Assembly: GCA_937900875.1 (NCBI GenBank)
Contig: CALCGD010000007.1
Span: 1-35,591 of the forward strand
Reading direction: 5' to 3'
Length of the DNA stretch: 35,591 bases
Source: an uncultured Flavobacteriales bacterium
GTDB taxonomy: Bacteria > Bacteroidota > Bacteroidia > UBA10329
Shown: piece by piece, positions 32,468 to 35,591 of the stretch
How the letters are laid out: every line of letters starts with the position of its first letter
How positions within the stretch are numbered: the stretch's first letter is position 1
Position numbers and translations under genes: made by a program
Notes under the pieces: generated by a model
What the model was told of the DNA's origin: nothing
Seen by the model: the letters and a program-made list of their open reading frames with translations, nothing else
Databases searched by the model: none

Positions 32468-33646
32468 TTAGGTGAAGGCGTTTATACCAGTAACATCCAT
32501 GCCAGTTATTAAAAGATGAATGTCGTGCGTGCCTTCGTAGGTAACTACACTTTCCAAATTCATCATATGGCGCATAATTGGATACTCACCTGTAATTCCC
32601 ATGCCACCAAGCATTTGTCTCGCTTCGCGAGCAGTTCTTAAGGCAATTTCAACGTTATTTCTCTTTGCCATTGAAATCTGTTGTGGCGATGCTCGATGAT
32701 CATTTTTTAAAACCCCCAATCGCCAAACAAGTAATTGCGCTTTGGTTATTTCGGTAATCATCTCAGCAAGTTTTTTCTGCTGAAGCTGAAATCCGCCAAT
32801 TGGTCTTCCAAACTGAATTCGCTCTTTAGAGTACCTCAATGCTGTGTCGTAGCAATCCAGTGCAGCACCTAAAGCGCCCCAAGCAATGCCGTATCTTGCA
32901 GAGTTTAGGCAACTCAATGGCCCTTTCAGTCCGCGGATGTCTGGAAACAGGTTCTCTTTTGGAACCTTTACATTATCAAAAACTAACTCGCCAGTTGCAG
33001 ATGCCCGCAAACTCCATTTTCCGTGTGTTTCAGGGGTAGTAAAACCTTCCATTCCACGCTCTACAACGAGTCCTCTAATTGTACCTTCTTCGTCCTTGGC
33101 CCAAACCACAGCAATGTCTGCGAAGGGTGCGTTGCTAATCCACATTTTAGCGCCATTCAAGATTACGTGATCCCCAGCGTCTTTAAAGTTGGTAACCATC
33201 CCGTTTGGGTTAGAGCCATGGTCTGGTTCTGTAAGCCCGAAACATCCGAGCAATTCTCCGGTAGCCAATTTTGGTAACCATTTTTGCTTTTGGCTTTCGG
33301 TAGCATAGCTCCAAATTGGAAACATAACCAACGAGCTTTGAACCGATGCGGTGCTTCTGAGGCCGCTATCGCAGCGCTCCAATTCCTGCATGATGATGCC
33401 GTAAGATATTTGGTCTAATCCAGGTCCACCGTATTCGGCTGGAATGTATGGCCCGAATGCACCTATTTCTCCTAATCCTTGTAAAAGATGTCGTGGAAAT
33501 TCAGCTTTCTGAGCGTATTCCTCTATAATAGGAGATACGTTTTGCTTAACCCAAGCTCGCACGGTATCTCTAATAAGTTTGTGTTCATCTGTAAGTAACT
33601 CATCTACCAAATAGTAGTCGTGTCCTTCGTATCTGTCGTCTGCCAT
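32468..33646 (-). CDS. Glutaryl-CoA dehydrogenase-type acyl-CoA dehydrogenase
   Basis: This 392-residue flavoprotein matches glutaryl-CoA dehydrogenase: SVQSSLVMFPIW, then LLGCFGLTEPDHGSNP, then GKWSLRASATGE, then CLNSARYGIAWG, then NLESVVTYEGTHDIH with catalytic Glu near residue 371. It would oxidise and decarboxylate glutaryl-CoA to crotonyl-CoA in lysine and tryptophan catabolism, passing electrons to ETF. The similarity through the middle and end is close enough to prefer this over a generic acyl-CoA dehydrogenase. A TACTTTTG promoter box lies 19 bases upstream. Confidence 0.9.
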   Translation of the reverse strand: MADDRYEGHDYYLVDELLTDEHKLIRDTVRAWVKQNVSPIIEEYAQKAEFPRHLLQGLGEIGAFGPYIPAEYGGPGLDQISYGIIMQELERCDSGLRSTASVQSSLVMFPIWSYATESQKQKWLPKLATGELLGCFGLTEPDHGSNPNGMVTNFKDAGDHVILNGAKMWISNAPFADIAVVWAKDEEGTIRGLVVERGMEGFTTPETHGKWSLRASATGELVFDNVKVPKENLFPDIRGLKGPLSCLNSARYGIAWGALGAALDCYDTALRYSKERIQFGRPIGGFQLQQKKLAEMITEITKAQLLVWRLGVLKNDHRASPQQISMAKRNNVEIALRTAREARQMLGGMGITGEYPIMRHMMNLESVVTYEGTHDIHLLITGMDVTGINAFT

Positions 33647-33665
33647 AGTGCTAATTTGTGGACGG

Positions 33666-33673
33666 CAAAAGTA
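33666..33673 (-). promoter_or_regulatory. TACTTTTG -7 box for glutaryl-CoA dehydrogenase
   Basis: On the minus strand this reads TACTTTTG, an exact match, 19 bases before the ATG at 33646. The rest of the 136-base divergent gap holds a weaker TAATTTAG (33757-33764) that may serve the plus-strand gene. Confidence 0.55.
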
Positions 33674-33782
33674 GGAAAAGCTGATGCTGCCTAAAAACGA
33701 ACAAATTGAAGACTTGTCCTTCTGACATTCATCACGGTGTTTCCGTTTTCGAAAATTAATTTAGAAGCCTGAAACAAATTAC

Positions 33783-34610
33783 ATGAGAACTTTTGTCATT
33801 ACTTCGTTTATCACAGTAATCTGCCTAGCGTTATCTTTTGCTTTTGAAGATAAGCCAGCGATGAGTGTTTCTGCTGGAGCGCCAGTATCTCGGACTGGGT
33901 CGCCAGGCGATGGAATGACGTGTATGGATCAATGTCACGGAGCTAATCCAGGGACTCCAAACGGCAACGAGGCAATTACCCTTATCGGGTTGCCAATTGA
34001 AGGGTATGTTCCTGGACAAGTTTACAACTTAACCCTTGCAGCCACTGGCAGCTCTAATGATATTTTTGGTTTTGAAATATCGCCTCAGGATTGGACAGGA
34101 GAAATGCGTGGGTCTTGGATTACTGGAGGATCCAATCTCGTTCAAATACTGAATACCAAATGGATGACGCACACATTTGCGGGTAATTCTGGTTCTGGAG
34201 GAGCTCGCAGTTGGGATTTTCAATGGGAAGCACCTAGTCTTGGAACTGGTGATGTAAATTTTTATTTCACCTCAATTTTTGCCGATGGTATGAATGCTCA
34301 TTTGGGCGATGTGATGCTACAGGATAGCGTAATGATTATGGAAAATAATGGCGTGAGCATAACCGAGCCAACAACTGAGGTGACTGTTTCTCTCAATTCT
34401 TTGGAGAAGGTTATCAATATTAATAACCCAATTCGGCTAGTATTTAATGTTCAGGTGTTAAGTCTTGACGGAAGACTCGTGCACAACGCAAACGTATCGG
34501 GATTGGAATCTAAAATTGATCTCGCCTCCCATGCACAAAATGGCGTTTACTTAGTTGTTCTAAGAGGTGAGGGCTTTATGCAAACGCTCCGAGTGGCTCT
34601 ATTGAAATAA
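33783..34610 (+). CDS. Secreted Reeler/choice-of-anchor-like protein with CX3CH motif (copy 1)
   Basis: This 275-residue protein has a signal peptide (about residues 1-21). GAPVSRTGSPGDGMTC leads into Cys47-Met-Asp-Gln-Cys51-His52. A beta-sandwich follows (PGQVYNLTLAATG, FGFEISPQDW, ARSWDFQWEAP, FYFTSIFADG), resembling Reelin-domain or choice-of-anchor proteins of Bacteroidota. The C-terminus (FNVQVLSLDGRLV to VALLK) is a T9SS-type sorting domain without the usual YPNP. The neighbour at 34717 is a paralogue with Cys and His at the same residue numbers. The role is unknown; covalent haem binding is possible but unproven. Confidence 0.75.
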   Translation: MRTFVITSFITVICLALSFAFEDKPAMSVSAGAPVSRTGSPGDGMTCMDQCHGANPGTPNGNEAITLIGLPIEGYVPGQVYNLTLAATGSSNDIFGFEISPQDWTGEMRGSWITGGSNLVQILNTKWMTHTFAGNSGSGGARSWDFQWEAPSLGTGDVNFYFTSIFADGMNAHLGDVMLQDSVMIMENNGVSITEPTTEVTVSLNSLEKVININNPIRLVFNVQVLSLDGRLVHNANVSGLESKIDLASHAQNGVYLVVLRGEGFMQTLRVALLK

Positions 34611-34716
34611 CGGAGCCTTAAAATTTGTTGAAACTAAAACTGACAATTATCAGTAAATTGTTCCTAATAAATGTCGCTTGTCGGTATATTGGCGCCTAAT
34701 CTATAATCGTTTATCC

Positions 34717-35544
34717 ATGAAAAAGAAGTTTACTCTAGCACTTACTATGTTGTTGATGGCCGGAATGGCGTATGACTACAATCACAATTCTGCCCACACA
34801 TTTAGTAATGGAGCGCCTGGAGGTCAAACAGGGTCTCCTGGAGACGGCAGTAACTGTTCATCTAGCTGTCATACTGGAGGACCTTCTCAAACAAATGAAA
34901 CGGTAAGCATTACCTCGGATGTTCCAGGTAGTGGGTGGGTTGCTGGAACGACTTACTCTTTCACAGTTACTGCAACCAACGCTGGTGGTACTGAATTTGG
35001 ATTCCAAATCTCTCCTCAAGACAATGCAGGAAACCTTATTGGAACACTCATAGCTTCTGGTTCAGGAACAAATTTTTCGGCTGGAGGAAGTGATTATATC
35101 ACGCATGCTCCTGGAGGAACAGCTGGTGCAGGAAGCAAAACATGGACGTTTGAATGGACCGCTCCTGTAGGGGGCACAGGAAGCGTGACTTTCTATAGCG
35201 CTATCAATTTCTCTGACAACACAGGCAACCAATTCAACGATGTGATTGTTACCGAGACACATGTTATTCCAGAATCAAATGTTGGTATAAGTGAAGCAGA
35301 ACTTGCTTCAATTTCCATATACCCAAATCCTGTGATTAATGAAATACATGTTGCCGCAAAAGATGTTGACGAAGAAATCATGATTACCATGTATTCAATG
35401 GATGGAAAGAAAGTTTTGCAAGAGCAATTTGATGGTGGAGACATAACTATTGACATCGCTTCCAGAAACTTGAACACAGGAGTATATTTCTTGAATTTAG
35501 AAATTGACGGAAAAACAACAATCAAGAAATTGTTGGTTAAATAA
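34717..35544 (+). CDS. Secreted Reeler/choice-of-anchor-like protein with CX3CH motif (copy 2)
   Basis: The protein has 275 residues from the ATG at 34717; the longer frame from 34678 puts 13 residues before the signal peptide (MKKKFTLALTMLLMAGMA) and is rejected. NGAPGGQTGSPGDGSNC leads into Cys47-Ser-Ser-Ser-Cys51-His52. The beta-sandwich (FGFQISPQDN, SKTWTFEWTAP, VTFYSAINFSDN) parallels copy 1 strand by strand. The C-terminus has a full type A T9SS sorting domain (SIYPNPVINEIHV to KKLLVK). Equal length and motif placement show a tandem duplication. A terminator follows directly. Confidence 0.8.
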   Translation: MKKKFTLALTMLLMAGMAYDYNHNSAHTFSNGAPGGQTGSPGDGSNCSSSCHTGGPSQTNETVSITSDVPGSGWVAGTTYSFTVTATNAGGTEFGFQISPQDNAGNLIGTLIASGSGTNFSAGGSDYITHAPGGTAGAGSKTWTFEWTAPVGGTGSVTFYSAINFSDNTGNQFNDVIVTETHVIPESNVGISEAELASISIYPNPVINEIHVAAKDVDEEIMITMYSMDGKKVLQEQFDGGDITIDIASRNLNTGVYFLNLEIDGKTTIKKLLVK

Positions 35545-35563
35545 TAGCAATAAGAACAGTTAC

Positions 35564-35591
35564 AAAAAAGGTGCTTTGCGGCACCTTTTTT
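35564..35591 (+). terminator. Intrinsic terminator at the right edge
   Basis: AAAAAAGGTGC (35564-35574) pairs perfectly with GCACCTTTTTT (35581-35591) around TTTGCG. The T-run reaches the window end. It closes the tandem secreted-protein pair. Confidence 0.85.

Follow-up and report, generated by a model that had tools for sequence, protein, structure and literature searches.

The window analysed here, a 35,591-nucleotide contig of an uncultured Flavobacteriales bacterium, ends in two tandem genes for choice-of-anchor V proteins (NCBIfam NF041895; V hereafter), both of which are probably Reeler-fold, cytochrome-f-like surface haem proteins with relaxed cysteine spacing. The best explanation of the whole, a surface haem c carried on a Reeler fold and encoded in an electron-transfer gene group, is given a probability of roughly 0.6. 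It builds on family membership, predicted fold, motif conservation, gene order, maturation genes and T9SS signals, all of which are established here. Haem c is the simplest account of a near-invariant C-Xn-C-H motif found together with cytochrome-like neighbours that follow the same loop rules, an association with maturation type and a cytochrome-f-like frame.

Two V genes at the end of the window

Both genes, copy 1 (P0001) and copy 2 (P0002), exceed the curated NF041895 cut-off of 42 bits (Table 1). Translation confirmed the first-pass annotation of a 275-residue pair in which Cys47-X3-Cys51-His52 follows a GAP...TGSPGDG segment, the two cysteines and the histidine occupying identical positions in the two copies. 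For copy 2, the listed open reading frame begins with a TTG at 34678 (288 aa), and the length of 275 aa is counted from the ATG at 34717. The copies are paralogues, as indicated by 31% identity over 279 columns (BLASTP 125 bits, E = 3e-39), and a genome-wide search returned them as the sole V matches in their own genome. Copy 1 barely passes the Pfam Reeler model (PF02014; 21.2 bits against a cut-off of 21), for which copy 2 is unlisted, and it is divergent, with a terminal branch of 0.95 in a tree of 234 V domains. Export of T9SS type, as first proposed from the sequence, is supported by the sorting tails of both copies and by SprA of the T9SS translocon in the same genome (TIGR04189, 2070.8 bits), the GldL match falling below cut-off. 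The tail of copy 1 is marginal for TIGR04183 (cut-off 23 bits) and, at 19.9 bits, lies below the PF18962 cut-off of 27.

Table 1. Features of the two V genes and of the linked contig C141
Feature	Position	Strand	Basis
Copy 1, choice-of-anchor V / Reeler-like, 275 aa	33783..34610	+	NF041895 78.2 bits
CMDQCH (C47-X3-C51-H52) of copy 1	33921..33938	+	translation, sequence
Weak T9SS type A sorting tail, copy 1, residues 211-271	34413..34595	+	TIGR04183 23.5 bits
Copy 2, choice-of-anchor V / Reeler-like, 275 aa from ATG	34717..35544	+	NF041895 87.3 bits
CSSSCH (C47-X3-C51-H52) of copy 2	34855..34872	+	translation, sequence
His codon of Tyr-x-Thr-His segment, copy 2	35104..35106	+	97 aligned V domains
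T9SS type A sorting tail, copy 2, residues 201-275	35317..35541	+	TIGR04183 46.6, PF18962 50.8 bits
55 bp identical to start of own contig C141	35537..35591	+	exact overlap
Hairpin and T-run just past copy 2	35564..35591	+	by eye
Lipoprotein, 128 residues, CATSSGCH (CX5CH)	C141:71-454		
YceI protein	C141:438-1019		
DUF5777 beta-barrel protein	C141:1009-1989		

Constancy of the motif and looseness of its spacing

An NF041895 search of 247 genomes from the class found V in 172 (~70%), and no relative was found on viral contigs. The C-Xn-C-H motif is present in 151 of 152 V domain matches, a set comprising 140 loci and the two window genes in which a few loci overlap and hence a few domains are counted twice; the single exception, L016 (G012:C17), has had its N-terminus removed by an in-frame stop. 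It likewise occurs in 98 of 98 V matches from 79 named loci, and divergent members also carry it, in a set where L245 begins at a contig edge within the motif and one row is a repeat region outside the domain. The conservation of C-Xn-C-H is far above chance. These counts come from class-wide searches in which the better-scoring matches were taken and many lower-scoring ones left out. Invariance within alignment A1 is a product of selection, since its rows were chosen by motif; the counting profile was built from the motif-bearing A1, a bias partly offset by the whole-genome loci having been found via NCBI's model. Two sub-cut-off NF041895 matches in giant frames of genome G058 (24.8 and 21.6 bits) are without the motif, and both were missed by our own V profile. 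Poor conservation of His52 among homologues, which the first-pass annotation had named as evidence that would count against its proposal, was not found in the V matches examined.

A single motif per open frame was observed in 249 of 250 V matches, lying at a median of 45 residues downstream of the heuristic start (242 rows), shortly past the putative signal peptide; a crude signal peptidase rule, a hint at most, makes the first cysteine residue 19-21 of the mature protein for 102 of 251. In the V gene of L016, an in-frame TAG lies between motif and sandwich and represents an assembly error or a pseudogene. V, again with a single motif, also forms the N-terminal domain of some large proteins (L214:5821-10710, L176:2763-4787, L183:1983-5501) that combine it with esterase-like domains, TIG domains and Ig_7 repeats.

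The spacing between the cysteines is loose. Among 234 distinct V domains, n = 2 in 141, 4 in 59, 3 in 16 and 5 in 11, with n = 6 (3 domains), n = 8 (2) and n = 1 (2) rare. The first-pass statement that relatives carry CxxCH, the canonical c-type motif absent from the two CX3CH window copies, is thus true of the majority, though n spans 1 to 8. Most other members of NF041895 have CX2CH or CX4CH, and the window copies share the N-terminal motif and the sandwich of the family, with no difference in architecture. A minimum of 43 spacing changes is needed on a tree of the 234 domains (shuffle mean 84), and n = 3 accounts for 10 changes on the same tree (shuffles 15.6), which was built with FastTree with the motif left out and is unrooted, 50 of its 231 branches being starred as well supported. 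V domains with CX4CH, CX5CH and CX2CH are present in the window's genus too, and, as judged from sequence, CX3CH is one among several recurrent spacings in the family. The first-pass annotation had read the extra residue as a variant haem site, a metal site or a disulfide; haem is the most likely of these meanings, whereas the notion of CX3CH as a special trait of the window pair was ruled out by the looseness of spacing across the family. As to which spacing is ancestral, n = 2 is the commonest, but the unrooted tree does not give the order of CX2CH and CX3CH.

Spacings of n = 1, 5, 6 and 8 are uncommon for haem c, which counts against a haem site in V, as does the statement on System I in PMC3601427 given below. 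The one-residue forms are CTCH in L234 (G220:C100) and CSCH in L244 (G220:C37), and genome G220 has three PF01578 matches, of both Ccm type and CcsBA size, as do its congeners G100 and G064. Unusual spacings are already regarded as haem motifs elsewhere, CX3CH and CX4CH being counted as haem-binding sites in iron oxidisers in the available part of PMC5566968; the portions of PMC4222556, PMC9084895 and PMC3884852 that were accessible make no mention of cysteine spacing.

It is highly improbable that CX2CH members hold the haem site while the window copies are degenerate, carrying at most one thioether or no haem. The divergence and weak sorting tail of copy 1 are in keeping with such decay, as is the statement, in an excerpt of PMC3601427, that System I attachment errs when the cysteine spacing is non-physiological. 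However, decay should drop one of the cysteines or the histidine, and none of them is lost in the above-cut-off members with an intact N-terminus that were examined. In addition, spacing variants arise repeatedly on the tree, and the lipoprotein encoded downstream in the same genome is itself of the CX5CH form.

Predicted fold, gene neighbourhood and maturation genes

AlphaFold2 was used to model the copy 2 domain and L151, a CX2CH relative (mean pLDDT 88.6 and 89.2, respectively), and the best PDB match of both models is the F-spondin Reeler domain (PF02014; PDB 2zou, 3coo; Foldseek E 1.3e-6; Z 13.3 and 13.7). Pfam Reeler matches 49 of 97 V members at E <= 0.01. The bacterial V members examined keep Cys-Xn-Cys-His, whereas eukaryotic Reeler domains are not known to carry this motif. 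The second fold family is cytochrome f, at Z 9.3-9.8 for copy 2 and 9.9-10.6 for L151. Rows within one Z unit count as tied, and for copy 2 cytochrome f is equalled in Z by integrin and cohesin rows, while other sandwiches reach at most 9.2 with L151, just under cytochrome f. In seven of the eight cytochrome f rows, L151 residues 8 to 167-169 align with cytochrome f residues 1 to 248-251 (138-143 residues, rmsd 3.1-3.4), the eighth row (1q90) aligning 159 residues at rmsd 6.8. Most unrelated sandwiches align from L151 residue 32-42 and omit the motif segment, with four rows starting at 3 or 25.

The motif of L151 consists of Cys27, Cys30 and His31, and cytochrome f has in its sequence Cys21, Cys24 and His25, which we take to be its haem site; if L151 residue 8 lies on cytochrome f residue 1, the modelled motifs would be in register to one residue. 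The sixth ligand of cytochrome f is its own N-terminal amine, and the title of a cytochrome f PDB entry speaks of unexpected haem ligation. Cytochrome f (PetA; PDB 1ctm) offers a haem-c beta sandwich with an N-terminal segment that aligns with V, but it has no sequence similarity to V, whose spacing is loose, and its small domain and b6f partners were not seen for V here. Homology at the sequence level was ruled out by hhalign (probability 4.4 over 10 columns). No Pfam cytochrome family matches any of the 97 V members, which stands against haem c, as do Reeler being the closer fold and the tie of cytochrome f with integrin and cohesin rows for copy 2.

The fold can also be read differently. 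A small Cys-Cys disulfide loop might pin the N-terminal segment onto the Reeler sandwich, standing in for the disulfide of eukaryotic Reeler domains, with the histidine packing or hydrogen-bonding and the protein serving as a surface adhesin or scaffold. F-spondin Reeler as the top fold match, the Ig-like, TIG and PKD domains of large V members, the fact that loops of length 1 to 8 are all closable and the oxidising conditions met by T9SS cargo would all suit this arrangement. It is nevertheless considered unlikely, as it leaves unexplained a constant histidine beside the second cysteine and a cytochrome f match that spans the N-terminal segment.

A further histidine, in a Tyr-x-Thr-His segment, is conserved in 81 of 97 aligned V domains and replaced by Gln in 12; judged from the alignment, a second iron ligand and a structural residue are both possible roles. 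With three near-invariant candidate ligands and this histidine, the Cys-Cys-His set, perhaps joined by the Thr-His residue, might bind copper, zinc or iron in a metal-trafficking or metal-sensing surface protein, and the copper-binding protein YcnI, which has an Ig-like fold, is among the fold matches. Such a role appears improbable, because YcnI ranks below cytochrome f and its matches, covering model residues 42-167, omit the motif segment, because Cys-Xn-Cys-His with adjacent cysteine and histidine is a hallmark of haem c, and because some gene neighbours are cytochromes.

The window contig (C7) stops 47 bases past copy 2, and its 55-bp overlap with C141 places the genes for a cytochrome-like lipoprotein, a YceI protein and a DUF5777 protein directly downstream of copy 2. 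In L271, from genome G239 of the same genus, V, lipoprotein, YceI and DUF5777 are contiguous in that order. Across the genus, 9 of 12 V loci have a YceI gene after V, eight of them recognised by profile and the window via the overlap. The contig link is further supported by relatives of the flanking genes: copy 1 is preceded by what is by sequence an acyl-CoA dehydrogenase, of which a like-starting relative stands beside V in 6 of 11 genus stretches, and elsewhere in the genus relatives of the two genes that come after DUF5777 on C141 are found near V. Confidence is lowered by the own-genome lipoprotein, for which no Pfam or NCBIfam match was found at E <= 0.1, and by six other genomes of the genus in which DUF5777 lies on a different contig from V, mostly with a YceI gene and lipoproteins of its own. 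Across the class, 37 named loci include 4 kb of sequence either side of V, and in 9 of these a partner gene lies no more than 4 kb away (downstream in 7 and upstream in 3, one locus having both); a neighbour-rank test found no enrichment of CxxCH genes near V (7/287 vs 6/278). Both the minority status of the gene group and the null test count against haem c; the latter means either that the group extends over several genes or that class-wide enrichment is absent.

Near V-YceI there is a conserved group (L266:3273-5994, L269:7-2671, L274:2561-5276) of an MKRRGFIKKA-starting protein with a weak TAT-signal match, a CAVPGCH protein of ~330 residues and a protein of ~147 residues, the last two of which follow DUF5777 on C141 in the window genome. 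A hairpin with a T-run lies just past copy 2, and a similar one separates V from the lipoprotein gene in G239 (L271, ~1930-1960). It is a possible attenuator setting the ratio of V to downstream gene products; a terminator scan of 33600-35591 found no site, perhaps because the contig ends there.

The partner lipoproteins resemble cytochromes to varying degrees. One (L196:3111-3779) scores above the PSCyt1 and Cytochrome_CBB3 cut-offs, those at L196:3790-4158, L191 and L271 fall below them, and in L198 a multihaem cytochrome adjoins V; the C141 lipoprotein is tied to these partners solely by a profile of our own building (39.5 bits). Lipoproteins of the PSCyt1 / Cytochrome_CBB3 type are, like V, exported proteins with a haem-c-type motif, loose spacing and a CAxSGCH loop, but they have a lipoprotein anchor (by eye) in place of the T9SS tail, and no sequence relation to V was seen. 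Among 57 distinct partner motifs, n = 2 in 24, 3 in 4, 4 in 23, 5 in 4 and 6 in 2, and haem binding by those with n other than 2 is putative. The n = 4 loops are alike in the two sets, with Ala first (35 of 59 in V, 14 of 24 in partners), Ser third (32 and 12) and Gly last (45 and 23), the partner loops having been counted slightly differently; the n = 2 loops differ, and the sets have no ORF in common. These shared rules suggest that one attachment machinery may have shaped V and partners alike, and a disulfide loop would not explain why cytochrome-like partners have the CAxSGCH loop and spacing in common with V. Lipoproteins with two motifs, CX4CH followed by CX2CH, also occur in the V gene group (L193:3212-3886, L196:3111-3782, L151:1669-2415, L170:4321-5067).

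The cytochrome c maturation genes that the first-pass annotation proposed to look for are present, with two PF01578 proteins and a CcmE bearing CPSKY beside which CcmC- and CcmF-like genes were identified by eye; the CPSKY form is that of System I*, according to the accessible portion of PMC3601427. The mere presence of a PF01578 assembly protein is uninformative as a test, as 242 of 247 genomes of the class have one; of the five without, two bear V (G136, 69% complete; G174, 80% complete). Genomes were divided according to how many PF01578 matches they have and the score and frame length of these, with ResB left out and the Ccm-type class comprising every other single-type genome, i.e. the remainder. 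On this division, n = 2 in 10 of 10 V domains from the eight genomes whose single PF01578 match is of CcsBA size, compared with 80 of 145 from Ccm-type genomes (Fisher p 0.005); the counts are 8/8 vs 64/110 by genome (p 0.02) and 4/4 vs 24/45 by family. The three genomes that have both types show n values of 1 to 5, with n = 2 in 4 of 11 V domains, and the lone V domain from a PF01578-less genome has n = 2. A separate set gave n = 2 in 38 of 38 rows, mostly from one family and with one domain counted twice, and the six genomes of that family in the PF01578 survey have CcsBA size only. The association between spacing and maturation type, post hoc and confounded by phylogeny, is suggestive, and it too is left unexplained by a disulfide.

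A proposed surface haem c model and its implications

We infer haem, its ligands, electron transfer and tolerance of the spacer along the following lines. In the periplasm, a single haem would be covalently joined to both cysteines of C-X3-C-H, with the adjacent histidine as an iron ligand; the haem would be attached first, after which the folded protein would exit via T9SS and stay anchored to the cell surface through its C-terminal tail. A cytochrome-f-like pocket serves as the working model because the motif occupies roughly the position of the cytochrome f haem site, close to the N-terminus of the mature protein and beside a beta sandwich. For the second ligand, the N-terminal amine and the conserved Thr-His histidine are both candidates, and the substitution of the latter by Gln in some members, by which the second axial ligand is not invariant, weighs against haem c. 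The spacer may vary because Ccm-type machinery, here the System I* with CPSKY CcmE, tolerates variation. The gene group of copy 1, copy 2, haem-c-like lipoprotein, YceI and DUF5777 barrel would most likely serve electron movement at the outer membrane. A broader proposal, put forward tentatively as possible rather than likely, is that V forms an unrecognised class of surface cytochrome, Reeler-fold, cytochrome-f-like, mono-haem, maybe ligated by the N-terminal amine and exported by T9SS, in which System I* takes n from 1 to 8 and CcsBA lineages have n = 2.

A non-cytochrome fold with a c-type motif has a precedent in the haem-bearing Cache domain (DUF3365/Tll0287), whose haem is supported by spectra; as described in an excerpt of a preprint (PMC12889525), it differs from V in its fold, its canonical CXXCH and its sensory or redox role. 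Literature searches returned nothing on the V family, on DUF5777 or on Reeler with cytochrome c in Bacteroidetes, only tick and insect work for Reeler with haem in bacteria, only unrelated work for Reeler with cytochrome f, and none for cytochrome f ligation.

Collectively, V is a family present in ~70% of the sampled genomes of its class for which the literature search found no described function. If its members carry haem c, many Bacteroidota would have surface cytochromes delivered by T9SS, and cytochrome counts based on CXXCH would be too low, standard searches missing many in the phylum. The natural spacings of V would then provide a substrate set with which to probe recognition by Ccm (System I*) and CcsBA. 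Haem c in V would also point to a haem-capable sandwich common to the Reeler fold and cytochrome f.
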